Below are positions 13,959-37,277 of a stretch of DNA of 37,277 bases, piece by piece; position 1 is the stretch's first letter; the number at the start of each line of letters is the position of its first letter. Below the pieces are notes generated by a model. The model was not told the origin of the DNA. It saw nothing but the letters and a program-made list of their open reading frames with translations, and did no database searches. The DNA is from a virus. Where the stretch lies: IMG/VR virus record IMGVR_UViG_3300025732_000118, positions 1 to 37,277 of that record. One strand, written 5' to 3'. Both the position numbers and the translations under genes were made by a program.

Positions 13959-15365
13959 TTACGAGGAAGGATACTGAAGTGCCCACTTCGAAGTGGCGCC
14001 ATCGATAAGATCGATAAAGCCGATTCTCTGTGAAGCAACCAGAACACGACGCTGATTTTCAACATCATAATCTGACTCAACAGTGACCCCACGAAGCCGA
14101 GGAACAACGAAGTTACGAGCGTAAACAGCCACTGCAGCATACTTGTTAGCAGCAGGAGTTGCAAACTCATCGCACAGCAGTACACGGCTTCCATACACTT
14201 GTCCTACTTGACCCGAAACCTTTGTAGCCAAGTTTCCAACTAGGTTCATATCTTGGAATTCTGCGTCTTCGAGCAGTTCAAAATAGGTGCGCTGGTTAAC
14301 GATGTAAACAACGTCTTCCGGGCGAACACCATACTTGCCCATGTTCTTACGCAGCGTTAACAGATTTGCAGTTGTAACAGCTGCATTTGCAGTCGTTACG
14401 CCAGTGATTTGAGTCTTGTGGCTGTCTAAATCTGCCAGCTTGATAAGACCGTCGTAAGAAGCGCCTGAAGTATTAAAAGGACCATCAGCATGATTACCTA
14501 CCAGCAGCGAAGCTTCGATTGCACGAGCATGCGAACGAATCATCGACTCACGAATCAACGGAAGAATCGGCAGAATTGCATCTTCTTCAGTTTCGTTGCC
14601 AAGATAGCTCTTCGAAATCAGCTTCTTCGTGGTCAGCACGCGTTCGGTCATCGATACGCCAATGTAAGGCGAACCGTATGCATTCGAACGAGGATCTAAG
14701 TTACCTTTCGGTGACGATCCGCTTGCGCTCTGGTTTGAAGTAAATTCTGCATAACCTGCGTCTGGCAGAATTGGCAGAATCAGACTTGCTGCGGTCATCT
14801 GAATTTCACGGAACAGAGGAGCAAGAATCAGAGCATTTTGAATATCACGCTCGATGCTTGTAGAAACGATCTGCTCGAAGTCAGCCGAAGAAACTTCTAC
14901 GCCTGCCTGAGTGTTTACTTTCTGAATCAGTGAACGTCCCAGAGTCGTGTCCTGCCAGCCCTTACGAGTTACCAGGCCTAGTACATATGCATCGTCAGCA
15001 TCTTTTGCAAATGCCTTCTTCCAGTCTGAGTCTGTACGATCATTGAAAATACGCTTTGATTCGCGCATCTTCATGATTTCTTGTGACTTTTCCGAAATTT
15101 CACCGCGCAGTTCGTTTACGATCTTTTCCAGATCGGCGTTCTTGTCGGCAAAACGCTTCTCAATGTCAGCTACAAGGCGCTCAGCACCCGTGGTTACTGC
15201 TACCGAGATTTTATCGGAGAGTGCCTTTTCTTCCGATTGCTTGCGAGCAGCTTCTTCTGCAGCAACTCGAGCCTTTTCTTCACGCTCAATTTGCGCAGCA
15301 GCTAACGTCTGTGCAGTCTTTTCTGCGACAGAAGCTACCAATGCTTCTAAATCTTTTGGATCCAT
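13959..15365 (-). CDS. Candidate nested in-frame product: scaffold-capsid made from internal start Met286
   Basis: Codon 286 of the fusion is an ATG (15365-15363) preceded by AAGGAG with 9 bases between, a stronger ribosome site than most in this genome. Starting there gives a 468-residue protein with the coiled-coil scaffold and the capsid fold, but no protease. Capsid subunits could thus be made in excess of protease, as lambda does with the nested C/Nu3 genes. The ribosome site and frame are seen; use of this start is inference. Confidence 0.6.
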   Translation of the reverse strand: MDPKDLEALVASVAEKTAQTLAAAQIEREEKARVAAEEAARKQSEEKALSDKISVAVTTGAERLVADIEKRFADKNADLEKIVNELRGEISEKSQEIMKMRESKRIFNDRTDSDWKKAFAKDADDAYVLGLVTRKGWQDTTLGRSLIQKVNTQAGVEVSSADFEQIVSTSIERDIQNALILAPLFREIQMTAASLILPILPDAGYAEFTSNQSASGSSPKGNLDPRSNAYGSPYIGVSMTERVLTTKKLISKSYLGNETEEDAILPILPLIRESMIRSHARAIEASLLVGNHADGPFNTSGASYDGLIKLADLDSHKTQITGVTTANAAVTTANLLTLRKNMGKYGVRPEDVVYIVNQRTYFELLEDAEFQDMNLVGNLATKVSGQVGQVYGSRVLLCDEFATPAANKYAAVAVYARNFVVPRLRGVTVESDYDVENQRRVLVASQRIGFIDLIDGATSKWALQYPSS

Positions 15366-16220
15366 GTGTTTAATCTCCTTAGTTGCGACTTTAGTCGCTT
15401 CTCCCGGCGCAGTGGCGCTCGAAGATTCAGCATTTACTTTTTCTTCAAGTCCTTCTAGGCCGTCATTCATGAACGTTCTTTTAAATAATTGATAATCCTC
15501 GGACGAATCAAAGGACTTTGACAATGAAAAGACGGCAGATTGATTTGCCGGTACAGAAACAACCGAAATCTCAAACAGTTCTGCGTCCTTAACTCTAAAT
15601 CCGTCGGTTTCCGGCATATAATCGGCATCCTTGATTCGAAAACCTACGGAAAAAGCGCCAAGGACTCCGTCTTTGATTAAGTCTAAAATCTCGCCAGCGG
15701 CTTTTGAGATTTTAGCCTTGATTCGTAAACCATCTGGATCTGGGTGAATTTCTACCGCTTTTCCAATTGGTTTTGCATACGAGTGATTGAAAAGAATTAC
15801 TGGATTTTTACGATAGTTATCCAGACCTCCTTTCATCCAAGCATTTGTTTCGATGATATCGCCAGTGCGATCAACATCTGGAGTGCTGGCAAGACCTGTA
15901 ATATAGGTATCACCATCTTCTGAAACAAGAGCTTTAAATTCTGTGCTTAAAAAGAAATTTTTATTCATAGCAATATCTACTCCCTTCGTAGCTTCTTCTT
16001 TACTAATTTTAGTAAGAGTAGAAACTTTGTGCCCTACAAGAGTTTCAGTTTCTTTTCCATCACGATAAATACGAATAAGTGCAGCAGGATCATCTTTACT
16101 AGCATTAATAGAAAAACTACTACCAGGAACTCCTAGAACACCTTCTGTCATTATATGTTCAATTCTTCCTTTGGCTGTGCCTCCAGAAGAATTCCACTTT
16201 ACATAATCTCCTACTTTCAT
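13959..16220 (-). CDS. Fused Tudor-like / S78 prohead protease / scaffold / HK97-fold major capsid protein
   Basis: One 753-codon frame holds the whole head-assembly set. Residues 1-75 (KVGDYVKWNSSGGTAKGRIE..., SKDDPAALIR) resemble the HVA1/DUF2945 Tudor-like domain. Residues about 105-232 are an HK97-type prohead protease with likely catalytic His146 (FNHSY), Ser191 (AFSVGF) and an acidic residue near 214-217 (ELFEISVVSVPANQSA). Residues about 285-390 are a charged Ala/Glu coiled coil expected to act as scaffold (delta domain). Residues about 400-753 are the HK97-fold capsid (ILPILPDAGYAEF..., QRRVLVASQRIGFIDL). Protease-capsid fusions are known; the N-terminal Tudor-like domain is less usual. 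Its start overlaps the upstream gene by ATGA. Confidence 0.92.
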   Translation of the reverse strand: MKVGDYVKWNSSGGTAKGRIEHIMTEGVLGVPGSSFSINASKDDPAALIRIYRDGKETETLVGHKVSTLTKISKEEATKGVDIAMNKNFFLSTEFKALVSEDGDTYITGLASTPDVDRTGDIIETNAWMKGGLDNYRKNPVILFNHSYAKPIGKAVEIHPDPDGLRIKAKISKAAGEILDLIKDGVLGAFSVGFRIKDADYMPETDGFRVKDAELFEISVVSVPANQSAVFSLSKSFDSSEDYQLFKRTFMNDGLEGLEEKVNAESSSATAPGEATKVATKEIKHMDPKDLEALVASVAEKTAQTLAAAQIEREEKARVAAEEAARKQSEEKALSDKISVAVTTGAERLVADIEKRFADKNADLEKIVNELRGEISEKSQEIMKMRESKRIFNDRTDSDWKKAFAKDADDAYVLGLVTRKGWQDTTLGRSLIQKVNTQAGVEVSSADFEQIVSTSIERDIQNALILAPLFREIQMTAASLILPILPDAGYAEFTSNQSASGSSPKGNLDPRSNAYGSPYIGVSMTERVLTTKKLISKSYLGNETEEDAILPILPLIRESMIRSHARAIEASLLVGNHADGPFNTSGASYDGLIKLADLDSHKTQITGVTTANAAVTTANLLTLRKNMGKYGVRPEDVVYIVNQRTYFELLEDAEFQDMNLVGNLATKVSGQVGQVYGSRVLLCDEFATPAANKYAAVAVYARNFVVPRLRGVTVESDYDVENQRRVLVASQRIGFIDLIDGATSKWALQYPSS

Positions 16221-18463: not shown

Positions 18464-19747
18464 TTAAAAAATTGTAGACGAAGTTTTAAAGCTATAAAGT
18501 GCGTATCGTAACGCGTCCGCCATGTGGCTAGCATAGTTGTGTTTTGGCTTTTCTTTTAACAAATTTGGGTTTTCATCCCACTGGTATGCATCCAGTGCGA
18601 CAAGTGTATGCTTACAATTTCCAGATACAATGAGATTGTTATTTTCCACGATACTGGCAACATGCCCAATTCCACTTAACACATCTTTTTCTGCATTGGT
18701 AGTTGCAATTCCAAAGTTTTGTGCTAAATCGAAGCGAACCTGCTGAGCCGCAGAATCGATGAAAATAAAATCGGGGTTCCAGCGAGCTATCATTTCATTC
18801 AGCGCTTCCGCATGTTGTTCCGTAGTTCGCTCCGCTTGTAGATACTCGTCAAGCACATAATACTTTTGCGAGTCCCAATCGTAGGCAAGCATGCAAAGAG
18901 CTGTGGGATCTTTGAAGCCCCAGTCCAACCCCGCGATGATGTCCATGCGTTCTACGTTCAATTCTTCCAGATTTGATACGCAAGCCGCAGCATCAAACTT
19001 CCACACCTGTCCTTCGAACACGTTAAAGTCTGCTAGGTATTCCTGAGCAAACTCCGCAGCTGACATAGTTTTACGCGCTTCTGCAATGTTTTCTGAGTTT
19101 TCTCGTGGATTGTCTTTCCAAGTTGCACGAATCGAAGCCCACTGAGGATACTCGTCAGAAAATCCACGAGCCCAAAATCGGCTAAACCAGTTGTTTTTAC
19201 CGCGAGGAGTTGAGATGAAGATGGCTCGTGCGTTCGGTTTGTCCAGCGTCGGTCTTAAAGCCACGTTAAAAGCGTTTTCACCGTCTGCTAGTGCAGCTTC
19301 GTCGAAGATGATAAGATCGTAGGAGCGTCCAACGGCAGAGTCCACTTGGTTCACTGAACCCATTCGAATCGTAGACTTGTTGCTCAACTCGATTACACGA
19401 TCCTTCGCATTGTCACGTTCCACTTCAAGCGAAAAGTGATCAATAAGACTACGTTGTAAATCGAACGAGATTTGAGAGAGATTGTAATTCGGGGCCATGA
19501 TCAGCACGTTACAGCTAGGAACTAGAGTAATTAACTGACCAATAATATTTGCAATAAAAGTTTTACCCTGCCGTCGAGAAACTGCAGCGACGACAAAGCG
19601 ATATTTTTGAATTGCATTTAATATTGCAATCTGAGACGGAATTGGATCTACATTTAAAAGTTCGAGATAGGGAGCTATCGGAAGTTTAATAAAAGTTTTA
19701 CATTCTTCTACAAATTCACACTGTATATCCGATCTACTTATTTCCAT
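18464..19747 (-). CDS. terL: Terminase large subunit
   Basis: The 427-residue protein is the packaging ATPase and nuclease. Visible motifs are Walker A SRRQGKT (57-63), Walker B LIIFDE (145-150, Glu150 catalytic), the coupling motif STPRG (179-183), and the RNase H-like nuclease acids Asp275 (AGLDWG), Asp331 (FIDSAA) and Asp411 (SHMADALRY). The length is normal. It overlaps the upstream membrane protein gene by 14 bases. It acts at the portal with TerS and probably with the HNH protein. The absence of a terminator before the downstream HNH promoter suggests that both transcripts run on. Confidence 0.95.
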   Translation of the reverse strand: MEISRSDIQCEFVEECKTFIKLPIAPYLELLNVDPIPSQIAILNAIQKYRFVVAAVSRRQGKTFIANIIGQLITLVPSCNVLIMAPNYNLSQISFDLQRSLIDHFSLEVERDNAKDRVIELSNKSTIRMGSVNQVDSAVGRSYDLIIFDEAALADGENAFNVALRPTLDKPNARAIFISTPRGKNNWFSRFWARGFSDEYPQWASIRATWKDNPRENSENIAEARKTMSAAEFAQEYLADFNVFEGQVWKFDAAACVSNLEELNVERMDIIAGLDWGFKDPTALCMLAYDWDSQKYYVLDEYLQAERTTEQHAEALNEMIARWNPDFIFIDSAAQQVRFDLAQNFGIATTNAEKDVLSGIGHVASIVENNNLIVSGNCKHTLVALDAYQWDENPNLLKEKPKHNYASHMADALRYALYSFKTSSTIF

Positions 19748-22435: not shown

Positions 22436-22447
22436 AATGGTAGCAGC

Positions 22448-22521
22448 AAAAAAGCCAGCTAAATCAATGACTTAGCTGGCGGTGCACCGCCCCGTAAGTC
22501 ATTGATTTTATTGGCTTTTTT
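22448..22521. repeat. Large imperfect hairpin with 37-nt arms (bidirectional terminator or repeat element)
   Basis: Bases 22448-22484 pair with 22485-22521 over 37 positions, interrupted only by two 3-base mismatch bubbles. The outer ends are A6/T6, so RNA from either strand would form a terminator-like stem followed by U-rich sequence. The inner part GGCGGTGCACCGCC is a perfect palindrome. A 26-nt stretch of the right arm (22488-22513) recurs exactly, inverted, at 25089-25114 in another hairpin. The interval 22436-22777 holds no gene apart from this and the palindrome at 22534. Confidence 0.85.
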
Positions 22522-22533
22522 GAAAGGGCGGTA

Positions 22534-25080: not shown

Positions 25081-25088
25081 AAAAACTT

Positions 25089-25138
25089 CAATAAAATCAA
25101 TGACTTACGGGGCGATGCATCGCCCGGTAAGCTATTGA
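25089..25138. repeat. Hairpin sharing a 26-nt arm with the hairpin at 22.45 kb
   Basis: GGGCGATGCATCGCCC (25110-25125) is a perfect palindrome, extended outwards by imperfect pairing to about 25097 and 25138. Bases 25089-25114 are identical to the minus strand of 22488-22513. It lacks the terminal U-run of its relative. Confidence 0.85.
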
Positions 25139-25238
25139 ATTGCAAGAACTTTTTTTTGGATGCTCGGGCGGGGTTTGTCAAGTTTTTGCACAATTTGCCG
25201 CCGACCCCGCTGCAGGTTGCTTGACTGTCAATCTGCTT

Positions 25239-25343: not shown

Positions 25344-25726
25344 CTAAGTGCAAAATTTACCGATCGGGAAATTTTAATTCAAATTTGTGCAAAATTTGTC
25401 GAAATTTACCGATCGGGAAAGTTTGCGCCAAAGTGCAAACTCAATGCAAGTAATAAATTCGCCGCGCCAGGCCTCGCGCGGGGTTTGAAGTGCGCTTATT
25501 TAAATTATACCGCAATTGAGTGCGGGTGTCAAGTACTAATTTTACGCAAATTAAGCGCGAACCCCGCCCAAATTTTTTCCGGCCCCCGGAGCGGGGTTTG
25601 TAAATTTTGTGCAATTGGGTGGGAATTTTTGCAAAATTTGTCGAAATTAAAAAAAAGCAGTTGACATGGCTTGCTCGGCCCCCGGAAATTTTTTAAGTAT
25701 TTTTTCAACCATTCTAAATTTTATAT

Positions 25727-27178: not shown

Positions 27179-27517
27179 ATGAAAGAAGCAACGAACTATA
27201 CACCAGAAATGGTTGAGATTATGGTTCAGCGATACAAAGCCGAACCTACGATGGATACTGTGGAAGAGCTATCTGAAATGTATGGCAAGCCGACCAAATC
27301 GATCATTGCCAAACTTTCTCGTGAAGGTGTGTACCTTAGGAAGGCTCGCCTGAATAAGGCTGGTGAACCTCCTGTACGCAAAGAAATGCTTGTCTCTTTG
27401 ATTGAAAGTGAACTCGGTTTTCCGGTGGAATCTTTTACAAAGGCGAGCAAGATCGACCTGATTCGCTTGTTTCGAAAGCTCAACGAGCTTAAAGTTGCGG
27501 CAGGTGGTCAGGTCTGA
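27179..27517 (+). CDS. HTH-like regulatory protein, paralogue 2
   Basis: The 112-residue product has an N-terminal YTPEMVEIMVQRYKAEPTMD and TVEELSEMYGKPTKSIIAKL followed by SREGVYLRKARLNKAGEPPV. That is the look of a small Myb/SANT-like or homeodomain-like HTH family common in phages (YT.E....  ..L......KS.IAKL.REGVY). The C-terminal part (LIESELGFPVESFTKASKIDLIRLFRKL) parallels the products at 22778 and 29145. It has its own promoter and a good CGGAG site. Likely DNA or RNA binding; target unknown. Confidence 0.78.
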   Translation: MKEATNYTPEMVEIMVQRYKAEPTMDTVEELSEMYGKPTKSIIAKLSREGVYLRKARLNKAGEPPVRKEMLVSLIESELGFPVESFTKASKIDLIRLFRKLNELKVAAGGQV

Positions 27518-28282: not shown

Positions 28283-28311
28283 TTGACTTTCATGGTCAAA
28301 TGCCTCATAAT
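28283..28311 (+). promoter_or_regulatory. Promoter of the large ncRNA candidate
   Basis: TTGACT (28283-28288) and CATAAT (28306-28311) are 17 bases apart. The predicted start is near 28318. No start codon with a ribosome site follows for over 500 bases. Confidence 0.75.
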
Positions 28312-28317
28312 ATCTTT

Positions 28318-28831
28318 CTAGAGTGATGAAAGCGAGCGGCGAAGTCGCCAAGTTTGTTCTTATCACTACTAGCGGTGAAACGATAATCACCCGACACTAA
28401 CAACGCGACAGATGTGAGTCGGAAAAACATCGGTACTTGCCGATACAAAGCGAGACTGTGTAAACTGCGTTAGTGTTTATACATATGCGAGGACGCGTAG
28501 GCAACGTGGTAAAAGGTTTAATGCCATTAACCTAAATTTGCAAGGTCAAGCAACCCCGCAAGCGGCAAATTAATAAATGAAGTCGCTAAATAAAAGCAAA
28601 ATTTACCTGAGACTGGTAAGTATTGCGTAAGACTAATAAAAGCAGGGAGTTCAACCCCTTATCCAATACTTTATGACCGAAGAACTGGACTGTCTTACGA
28701 AGTTAGGCATTCTTAGCAAAAATGCAAAGGCGAAGAGATCTAATAAATCTCCGATTAAGAGCGAGAGTGGGGCTACTTAATCATCCAAACCCTAAGCGGG
28801 GTCTGTAACAGGACCTTTCTTGGGGTTTTTT
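28318..28831 (+). ncRNA. Candidate large structured phage RNA (about 510 nt)
   Basis: Between its own promoter and terminator lies a stretch without any credible gene but full of complementary arms. Examples are AGTGAT/ATCACT (28322/28362), GGTGA/TCACC (28374/28387), ACACTAAC/GTTAGTGT (28394/28469), ATCGG/CCGAT (28429/28440), AATTTGC/GCAAATT (28535/28565), AAGTATTG/CAATACTT (28618/28664), CGTAAGAC/GTCTTACG (28626/28692), GAGAT/ATCTC (28735/28747) and GATTAA/TTAATC (28753/28777). The helices at 28618 and 28626 cross each other, which is a pseudoknot. Not tmRNA, RNase P or a group I intron by motif inspection. Size, complexity and nearness to phage tRNA genes recall the GOLLD and ROOL classes, but I see no sequence proof of membership. 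Confidence 0.7.
28787..28831 (+). terminator. Intrinsic terminator of the ncRNA candidate
   Basis: AAACCC (28787-28792) pairs with GGGTTT (28823-28828). An inner stem GGTC/GACC (28800/28812) lies between, and a T6 run follows. It ends the structured region 36 bases before the next gene. Confidence 0.78.
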
Positions 28832-28866
28832 ATTGGCTGAAAAATAAGCCTACAGCGGGGTCTATA

Positions 28867-29148
28867 GTGAATATAATAAAATTTCCTTCTTCTCACAATC
28901 TTTATAAAAGTTATGTAGCTCGATTAAATGAATATAACGAAACTATCGCCGAGTTACTGGAAAAAACGGAAGAAATGAATGAAACACTCAGTTTGCTAAT
29001 GCACGACTATTTGAGCGTATTGAGCAGCATGATGAGCGAGTTGAGCGAAGAGGATGTAAGAAAATTTTTAAAAGAAGAAGGGTCGAACCACTCATTAAGA
29101 CTAGTGGCGACTCCGCTATCCTTTCAATTATCAATGGAGTTCGAATGA
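28867..29148 (+). CDS. Acidic coiled-coil type protein (93 aa)
   Basis: The frame starts with GTG at 28867; no ATG gives an equally long product, and the ribosome site is weak. The product (NIIKFPSSHNLYKSYVARLN...) is mostly helical and acidic, with EYNETIAELLEKTEEMNETL looking like a coiled coil. The opening 'II.FP' is shared with the minus-strand gene at 30335. It overlaps the next gene by ATGA. Function unknown. Confidence 0.62.
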   Translation: MNIIKFPSSHNLYKSYVARLNEYNETIAELLEKTEEMNETLSLLMHDYLSVLSSMMSELSEEDVRKFLKEEGSNHSLRLVATPLSFQLSMEFE

Positions 29149-29489
29149 GCAATTATACAGCCGAAGAAACGGCAAAAATCATAAATACGTATCGAGTCGC
29201 AACAAATAAAAAATTAGCTATAGCCGAGCTGAGCGAAACACTCGTTCGAAGTGAAAAAAGCATTATCGGTAAGCTAGCACGTGAAGGTGTGTATGAAAAA
29301 AATCGTTATTTAAATAAGCGTGGAGAGGTGCCAGAAACGAAAAAAGAAATCATAGCTCGACTCGCGAATCTATGTAATTTAAACCCCGCTAGAATACAGG
29401 GTCTGGAAAAATCGCCCAAAAATGAGTTAAAACTGCTAGAACAAGCCCTTACAGACGCCCTAAATCCCGTAGAAATTACCCAAAATTAA
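29145..29489 (+). CDS. HTH-like regulatory protein, paralogue 3
   Basis: The 114-residue product (MSNYTAEETAKIINTYRVAT...) contains LSETLVRSEKSIIGKLAREG followed by VYEKNRYLNKRGEVPETKKE. It is plainly related to the proteins at 27179 and 22778, keeping the KSII.KL.REGVY core and the basic N-K-(R/A)-G-E-(V/P)-P element. The C-terminal LANLCNLNPARIQGLEKSPK and NELKLLEQAL match the 'GLEKAsK..L..L' half of the others. It is coupled to the preceding acidic gene by ATGA. Probably a nucleic-acid-binding regulator; target unknown. Confidence 0.76.
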   Translation: MSNYTAEETAKIINTYRVATNKKLAIAELSETLVRSEKSIIGKLAREGVYEKNRYLNKRGEVPETKKEIIARLANLCNLNPARIQGLEKSPKNELKLLEQALTDALNPVEITQN

Positions 29490-29534
29490 CCCTTAATTTT
29501 ATAACCACCTGCTTAAAAAAAAATATATAGACTT

Positions 29535-29881
29535 TTAAAAGACGGTATCTTGCGAGTATCGCGAATTGTCGCAACCCCGTCTTATATTTCGTACGTAATT
29601 ACATTGATTGAAACAAACAAATGATTCTTAAACCGTATTATTGCGCTTTGCGATCCCATACAACCGTAAAACGGTTAGTTAAAAACCGAATGCACAATCT
29701 TCGTTTGAATTCGTTTTAATAGCGTGTTCGGGCATGGAAAAACTTATAATAAAGATTGTAAATATGTCTAGAAGCTCTGTTCCCCGCTTACGCTTCCTTT
29801 CGAGCACACAGATTTTACAATCAATATAACTATTCCCAGACCCGAACACGAAACTGTTATGTAAGTTGTAATGAATTAATT
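29535..29881 (-). ncRNA. Second structured ncRNA candidate, minus strand (about 345 nt)
   Basis: From a minus-strand promoter to a hairpin near 29539-29583 there is no gene. Long-range complementary arms nest cleanly: CGTGTTCGGG/CCCGAACACG (29723/29841, 10 bp), enclosing GATTGTAAA/TTTACAATC (29754/29814, 9 bp), enclosing GCTC/GAGC (29774/29802). AACCG/CGGTT forms a local hairpin near 29663. The end hairpin pairs AAGACGG/CCGTCTT (29539/29577) over TTGCGA/TCGCAA and is followed by a short T-run in the minus direction. The only frame inside is an 18-codon one without a ribosome site. No known RNA family was recognised. Bases 29490-29534 and 29917-29963 carry nothing seen. Confidence 0.58.
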
Positions 29882-29887
29882 TCTATT

Positions 29888-29916
29888 ATTATACCACAAC
29901 TTTTGTAACAAGTCAA
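29888..29916 (-). promoter_or_regulatory. Minus-strand sigma70-type promoter of the second ncRNA candidate
   Basis: TTGACT (29916-29911) and TATAAT (29893-29888) with a 17-base spacer on the minus strand; predicted start near 29881. Confidence 0.8.
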
Positions 29917-29963
29917 GTGTTTTAGTTAACTTACTTATATATTATTTTTGAGTAGGTGAATAT

Positions 29964-36664: not shown

Positions 36665-37277
36665 TGACGAACAAAAAATACGAGATTAATGCAGGGGGAC
36701 GTGTAGTTGCTCTGCGTGACTTTGGCTTCGTAAAGGCTGGAGATGTTGGCGGGTTCGTTGAATCAGAAACGAATCTCAGCCATGAGGGCAATTGCTGGGT
36801 CTCTGGAAATGCACAGATCTACGGAGATGCGTGGATCTACGGAGATGCGTGGATCTATGAAAATGCACAGATCTGCGGGGATGCGCAGGTCTCTGGAAAC
36901 GCGCAGGTCTCTGGAAACGCGCAGGTCTCTGGAAATGCGTGGATCTTCGGAAACGCGCAGGTCTCTGGAAATGCGGAGGTTTCTGGAAATGCGTGGATCT
37001 TCGGAAATGCGCAGGTCTTCGGAAATGCGCAGGTCTTCGGAAATGCGCGGGTCCGCGGAAATTCACAGATCTGTGGAGATGCGCGGGTCTTCGGAAATGC
37101 GGAGGTTTCTGGAGACGCGCGGGTCTCTGGAGACGCGCGGGTCTCTGGAATCACGAGAAGCGATGGCTTTTGCTTTTGCTATGTGCCATGTTCGGATGGA
37201 AACCATAGAGTAATCGCGGGGTGTAGATACTTTACGATTCCTGAAGCGAGAGAGCACTGGGGAACTGAACACCCGCG
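36664..37277 (+). CDS. Hexapeptide-repeat left-handed beta-helix protein (C-terminus cut by window end)
   Basis: The ATG at 36664 shares TAATG with the preceding stop, and the frame stays open to the window edge (204 codons). After about 43 residues with the domain RVVALRDFGFVKAGDVGGFV, about 20 copies follow of a six-residue unit A-(Q/W/R/E)-(V/I)-(S/F/Y)-G-(N/D), from GNAQIYG near 48 to DARVSG near 168. This is a left-handed beta-helix. A Cys-rich part (FCFCYVPCSDGNHRVIAGCR) and FTIPEAREHW follow, as in phage polymer-forming or hexapeptide 'transferase-like' proteins. Many DNA repeats are near-identical 18-base units, evidence of recent expansion. No acetyltransferase active site was recognised. 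Confidence 0.85.
   Translation, partial: MTNKKYEINAGGRVVALRDFGFVKAGDVGGFVESETNLSHEGNCWVSGNAQIYGDAWIYGDAWIYENAQICGDAQVSGNAQVSGNAQVSGNAWIFGNAQVSGNAEVSGNAWIFGNAQVFGNAQVFGNARVRGNSQICGDARVFGNAEVSGDARVSGDARVSGITRSDGFCFCYVPCSDGNHRVIAGCRYFTIPEAREHWGTEHP

Follow-up and report, generated by a model that had tools for sequence, protein, structure and literature searches.

Our analysis of a virus record of 37,277 bases (hereafter the window), part of a phage with long relatives of about 94 kb, points to a structured noncoding RNA on the minus strand at positions 29535..29882 (both ends approximate), which we call RNA2 and which is very probably a real RNA gene. Its promoter, its fold, compensating changes in its stems and its fixed place and strand in relatives could be established by sequence comparison. 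The best explanation as a whole, to which we give a rough probability of 0.45, is that RNA2 is a stand-alone structured phage ncRNA that acts in trans by its shape. For its transcription, its action in trans and the kind of partner we infer the following: RNA2 would have a strong promoter to itself, used by host RNA polymerase in the direction opposite to the neighbouring operon; a long, kinked stem-loop and further stems would be formed by the 5' two thirds of the transcript, with a conserved short block near the 3' end; and the RNA would bind a protein or ribonucleoprotein of the host or the phage, as a scaffold or a decoy, and would not act by long antisense pairing. Because the stems change their letters and keep their shape, a partner that reads shape is suggested, a mechanism that we put forward tentatively. 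Relatives retain a folded RNA at this place although hardly any of its letters stay the same, and RNA2 matches no catalogued family; it is therefore probably a tool of these bacteria-killing viruses that has yet to be described.

An initial annotation of the window had proposed a TTGACT-17-TATAAT promoter on the minus strand followed by about 345 nt without a gene, and both are borne out. The sigma-70-type promoter occupies 29888..29916 (minus strand; the -35 begins at 29916 and the -10 ends at 29888), agrees with the consensus at 11 of 12 letters and has a TG before the -10. Since 4.5 kb contain 17 promoter-like sites against 11.3 expected, this match alone is not proof, and the conservation of the promoter in the relative G002 and, with changes, in the relative G017 is better evidence than the match itself. 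The start of RNA2 would lie near 29881-29882 as judged from the -10, and its end is placed from a hairpin. No ORF of at least 60 aa lies inside 29535-29882, and the minus strand of this stretch folds with -94.7 kcal/mol, compared to -72.8 +/- 4.8 kcal/mol for shuffles (z -4.53), none of 100 shuffles being as good. The two minimum-energy structures, those of the window and G002 RNAs, contain 113 and 123 pairs.

The fold is built around a stem P1, whose 5' arm CGUGUUCGGGU (29840..29850, minus strand, as for all elements of RNA2) forms 11 pairs with the 3' arm GCCCGAACACG (29723..29733), and which continues after an unpaired C into an upper part of six pairs, identical in the window and G002, between UGGGAA (29833..29838) and UUUCCA (29735..29740). 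Above it, the P2 arms GAUUGUAAA (29814..29822) and UUUACAAUC (29754..29762) pair in the window fold and recur in the G002 fold with a bulged A, and an apical AGCGUAAGCG (29785..29794) sits inside a GCUC/GAGC stem. The 10-bp and 9-bp arm pairs of the initial annotation are exact: 29723-29732 (cgtgttcggg) matches 29841-29850 (cccgaacacg) at 10/10 positions, and 29754-29762 (gattgtaaa) matches 29814-29822 (tttacaatc) at 9/9. Its nested terminal hairpin (29539..29583), which carries in its loop the 3' element CAATTCGCGAT (29558..29568, a single copy in the window), exists in the window; in G002 the loop sequence is kept and the outer stem is not, and the hairpin is absent from the list of terminator-like structures.

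The nearest relatives of RNA2 were found by blastn of 29500-29950 against 32 related records. G002 and G003, which are the same in the stretch compared and are counted as one, were matched in two pieces, at 81% over the promoter and 5' 136 positions and at 80% over 63 3' positions. The promoter, the RNA and the convergent position are all kept in G002, relatives of the genes at 29145 and 28867 following on the other strand, and its RNA2 homologue folds with a z of -5.15. The minimum-energy folds of the two RNAs coincide by alignment column in 17 pairs, every one in P1, while the folds of 200 shuffled windows have on average 0.27 pairs, and at most 9, in common with the G002 fold. Two of these 17 pairs are changed on both sides, one is changed on one side and 14 are unchanged: P1 reads CGUGUUCGGGU-C-UGGGAA with the partner GCCCGAACACG in the window, and CGUGCUAGGGU-C-UGGGAA with the partner ACCCUAGCACG, altered to match, in G002. 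P2, which has one bulged base in G002, is shifted by one column in the alignment and hence falls outside the 17. A scan with the P1 junction GGTCTGGRAA..TTYCCATNCC gave 41 loci, of which only G002 and G003 are real as judged by the flanking stem. A further relative, L132 (a 98 kb contig, G033), has the promoter, an RNA-sized gap (fold z -4.37) and the 3' block with, as in the window, AAGACGGG..TGCGA ahead of it. MAFFT misplaces the stems of L132 when it is aligned with the window and G002, and that alignment did not enter the pair counts. Only two distinct sequences can be aligned with the window along the full length of the RNA; L132 and G017 have in common with it only the promoter, 3' block or apical motif.

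RNA2 was placed among more distant relatives through the gene that faces it. This anchor gene (29145..29489, plus strand), which is convergent to RNA2 and has 37 relatives, is predicted to encode a small all-helical HTH-like protein. Its AlphaFold model has five helices (pLDDT 86.6); the best match in the PDB is not significant (E 0.68), and the top-ranked non-significant matches are mostly DNA-binding proteins. The start of the anchor gene is overlapped, by ATGA, by a gene at 28867..29148 (plus strand) that is not part of RNA2. The window holds two paralogues of the anchor protein, encoded at 27179-27517 and 29145-29489 (both plus strand; 40% over 72 residues), and related records have up to four matches to it. 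A profile of the anchor protein gathered 37 loci, and 23 of them have a recognisable RNA of the RNA2 kind on the same strand, although several are near copies, so that these are not 23 independent cases. The RNAs belong to several structural types: window-like (L129-L132), A (L149, L154, L156, L160, L162 and L163), A3 (L137, L139 and L140) and M (L143-L146, L148, L150, L157-L159 and L164, two of them by the 10-mer described below alone). At the other 14 loci the RNA is absent or cannot be told, L133 being cut before the place. Another structured candidate lies downstream of the anchor gene in L134 (3820-4545, minus strand) and L138 (3600-4395, minus strand), with a tRNA-like sequence adjoining on the other strand and compensating changes between the two in its apical stem.

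Compensating changes among relatives, by which the initial annotation had proposed to judge the stems, were found in types A1 and A3 and in type M as well as in P1 of the window and G002. A promoter scan for type A yielded 14 contigs or loci, 13 with an alignable RNA and 11 long enough to include the 3' end; L183 was dropped as coding, and L178 and L181 are too short for the 3' block. In the common 5' domain of types A1 and A3 (7 sequences), 17 of 38 pairs show a double change against 5.8 in shuffles, and the covariation score is 0.310 against 0.161 in shuffles, with 0/500 shuffles reaching it and a best slid control of 0.147. Type A2 folds a separate long stem, and of the 12 pairs in its closing helix one is doubly changed. 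The folds of A1 and A2 are only mildly better than those of shuffles (z -1.98 and -1.99), and RNAalifold gives all 11 group A sequences together only -2.8 kcal/mol, since A1 and A2 cannot be aligned in the 5' domain. The seven type M sequences have 37 pairs, 8 of them with a double change, and a score of 0.260 against 0.159 (0/500 shuffles, best slid control 0.106); their plain double-change count is not unusual, being reached by 69/500 shuffles.

The links between types are looser. The type A tail profile finds A3 (L137, L139 and L140; E 2.5e-4 to 8.6e-4), two type M loci (L157 and L159) at E 0.076 and G002 at 9.3, and finds neither the window nor L132 at E up to 10; the type M profile does not find the window. 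Because both profiles miss the window, the unity of the RNA types rests on place, strand, promoter and the 11-letter 3' block. The apical AGCGUAAGCG recurs as the 10-mer AGCGTAAGCG on the minus strand in 10/37 loci, 318 to 400 nt past the matched anchor-gene end (305 nt past the gene's end in the window). Eight of these ten loci match one profile with E <1e-36, but they are its own members, and the 10-mer alone is weak evidence since it also occurs elsewhere, at another place in G002 and in G016/G017. Homology of the apical part across loci is only suggestive, given that the type M profile fails to find the window.

Larger RNAs occur at the same place. G016/G017 have the promoter TTGACTTTTCGCAAAAGTCATGATATTAT, much like those of the window and G002, followed by about 680 nt up to a hairpin with a T run (G017 fold z -2.60), and in G030 (L082 2330-3565, minus strand) a TTGAAT-17-TATAAT-like promoter leads into about 1.2 kb of noncoding sequence at the equivalent convergent position (fold z -3.16 over 961 nt, 20 shuffles). 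These sizes could mean that RNA2 belongs functionally with the large ornate phage RNAs such as GOLLD and ROOL and either assembles with other copies or builds up late, the RNAs of the locus spanning sizes between about 150 nt and about 1.2 kb. We consider this quite unlikely, even though the conserved 3' and variable 5' parts recall GOLLD as reported (PMC12286853), and tRNA genes lie 2.5 to 3.4 kb from RNA2 in the window. The window RNA has less than half the length of GOLLD, and self-assembly is purely conjectural here. The Rfam search suggested by the initial annotation was run: it gave nothing at gathering scores for RNA2, only tRNAs, with chance-level matches besides at permissive thresholds, and nothing at gathering for the G017 and G030 RNAs, whose permissive matches, as far as listed, fall below gathering. 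GOLLD and ROOL are absent from both sets of matches for all three, and the 6S RNA model does not match RNA2 in either set.

The best conserved sequence among the window, G002 and L132 is the 3' block, which recurs in type A. When CAATTCGCGAT was sought in 166 sequences (1.14 Mb in all, two places being free to vary by one letter, and duplicates of context omitted from the count), it was found outside the window and G002 only in L131 (L132 is identical there), L149, L154, L160 and L163, always on the minus strand and in the gap. The pattern CRATYCGCGAT occurs once in 9/20 phage records and not in the other 11, while the reversed control occurs in 0/20. A scan with TGCGNCAATTCGCGATNNTC gave 6 loci, 4 of them real, two of which are contigs already known from the anchor-protein search; L166 and L167 were judged by context to be chance.

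Such a block invites the view that RNA2 is an antisense regulator, in which an unpaired 3' stretch, the CAAUUCGCGAU block or in type A a pyrimidine-rich tail with UUCCUUU, blocks translation of phage or host mRNAs by pairing with their ribosome-binding sites. The conservation of the block and the G-poor (0.10 to 0.18), C/U-rich tails of type A speak for this, but we think it unlikely on several counts. Neither a second copy nor a complement of the 11-letter element is present in the 20 phage records, and 3 of the 11 full-length type A RNAs are without the block even within two mismatches (7 have it within one mismatch and 8 within two). The element is no more open than other parts of its RNA, its unpairedness ranging from percentile 7 to 81 in 14 RNAs. 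Duplex energies with the start of the neighbouring mRNA are inconsistent, with z from -2.66 to +1.41 in 9 RNAs and two below -2 (the L132 gene start was set by hand 12 bases upstream of the match). Alternatively, the block could be the start of a small protein, which in the window and G002 would read L/M-RQFAIL-A/G-RYRLL; most codon differences between the two are synonymous in this frame, and L132 has ATG CGA CAA TTC GCG. We rejected this extremely improbable coding reading, as homology in the frame ends after about 7 codons in L132, a start codon is missing at that point in the type A RNAs and no clear ribosome-binding site is seen; L163 and L175, moreover, alter residues of the frame.

The same block, intergenic and in single copy in each record that has it, together with the constant position in a convergent gap, would also fit a DNA or cis element where the two operons meet, be it a boundary of transcription or a replication origin whose RNA primer is transcribed, of which the RNA would be a mere product. 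Against this, compensating changes in the stems need a function at the level of the RNA (or of a hairpin), and the RNA of L132 is separated from the anchor gene by about 2.4 kb that include other genes. The cumulative GC skew of the window and of 40 kb each of G002 and G033 tracks gene direction, with no major switch at RNA2, and an origin was rejected on this basis; we regard a cis element as improbable. RNA2 is also not placed like a cis-regulatory leader, the next gene downstream being on the opposite strand, as it is in G002 and the loci examined.

A second RNA candidate, RNA1, faces RNA2 across the two protein genes (28300-28840, plus strand), with a promoter, about 540 nt and a terminator-like hairpin just before the gene at 28867. 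The initial annotation suggested that the two RNAs might form one locus and proposed to test whether they always occur together; our comparison does not support a single locus, and the two are not always found side by side. In blastn of RNA1 against 23 records (E up to 0.1), the only match outside the window at E <0.001 was in G009 (E 2.6e-7), where the relative (L002) has a common core around CAACCCCGCAAGCGGCAAAT and the contig ends before the RNA2 place. No real match was obtained in the four records G002, G003, G033 and G034, all of which have a W-type RNA2, and chance-level matches of 15 to 20 nt were seen only in G034 (15 nt) and G035. The RNA1 slot in G002 is taken by another promoter-led sequence; a distant RNA1 could be hidden by sequence divergence. 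Pairing between RNA2 and RNA1 through GCAACCCCG/CGGGGUUGC was rejected, as G002 does not retain it and these genomes have many copies of ACCCCGC. No 7-mer is more over-represented in the window's first 36.7 kb than GCGGGGT/ACCCCGC (20 against 1.2 expected from dinucleotides), which is common also in the G002 and G009 stretches.

The large terminase gene of the window (18464-19747, minus strand) has 42 relatives among viral contigs and shares 88% identity with those of G002 (94,402 b) and G003 (93,817 b). Its best matches in named phages, at about 47% identity, are those of Pectobacterium phage My1, Vibrio phage phi 3 and coliphages of 104-122 kb, all of which we take to be T5-like (Demerecviridae), and it is to these presumed T5-like phages that the window stands nearest among named phages by this gene. 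RNA2 and its locus had no match in named phages by blastn, nor did the anchor protein by tblastn, and a search of open-licence papers found none on ncRNAs of T5-like phages. Elsewhere in the window, a 753-aa protein (13959-16220, minus strand) matches head maturation protease at residues 67-370 and major head protein at 594-735, so that protease and capsid appear to be fused. There are long imperfect palindromes at 22447-22522, 25081-25154 and 25350-25426, two of them mutually related (61 nt, 84%), and a tandem array at 36798-37150, inside the ORF 36743-37213, with an 18-nt (54-nt) unit, 19.6 copies and 77% match.

Whatever its partner, the locus offers an undescribed set of RNAs with a fixed place, a handle gene for finding more and a diversity that makes the stems testable. 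Where measurements exist, phage ncRNAs under strong promoters rank among the most abundant transcripts made during infection, and almost none has a function assigned. One could go further than a stand-alone RNA acting by shape and suppose that the place opposite the HTH-like gene is a fixed slot for a folded RNA (between about 150 nt and 1.2 kb) that changes its sequence, and even its stem plan, more quickly than any of the neighbouring genes change. The occupant would then be an effector RNA that takes part in an arms race between phage and host, for example a decoy for a defence protein or a host RNA-processing machine, and the slot an RNA counterpart of anti-defence protein islands. This extension is rather doubtful; if true, it would mean that the weapons of phages against their hosts include structured RNA besides small proteins.

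The ToxI antitoxin RNA is made of repeat units, whereas no tandem repeats were found at RNA2's place in the window, which sets RNA2 apart from the ToxI mimic of phage PhiTE. That mimic is reported to be a phage RNA acting in trans on a host system (PMC3475682). The structured RNA candidates obtained by comparative genomics from bacteria and metagenomes resemble RNA2 in having compensating changes and no known function (PMC2864571, PMC8040213); no family in Rfam matches RNA2. Vibriophage ICP1 (a transcript of about 800 nt; PMC7567579) and staphylococcal phage K (lnc001 and others; PMC9241854) likewise have noncoding RNA genes in gene-free gaps, with abundant transcripts whose roles are given as unknown; these belong to other phages and are backed by RNA-seq, whereas RNA2 is known from its sequence. 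The nearest known kind to RNA2 is the phage structured ncRNAs. GOLLD and ROOL, described as large ornate noncoding RNAs of phages and prophages, often near tRNA genes and of unknown function (PMC12286853), are like RNA2 phage-encoded, structured and noncoding. They differ from it in sequence, in stems, in its lack of an Rfam match and in size: many GOLLD RNAs exceed 800 nt, with a conserved 3' and a less conserved 5' region (PMC12286853), whereas RNA2, at about 345 nt, stays below the size that marks GOLLD as large, which the G030 RNA would reach.
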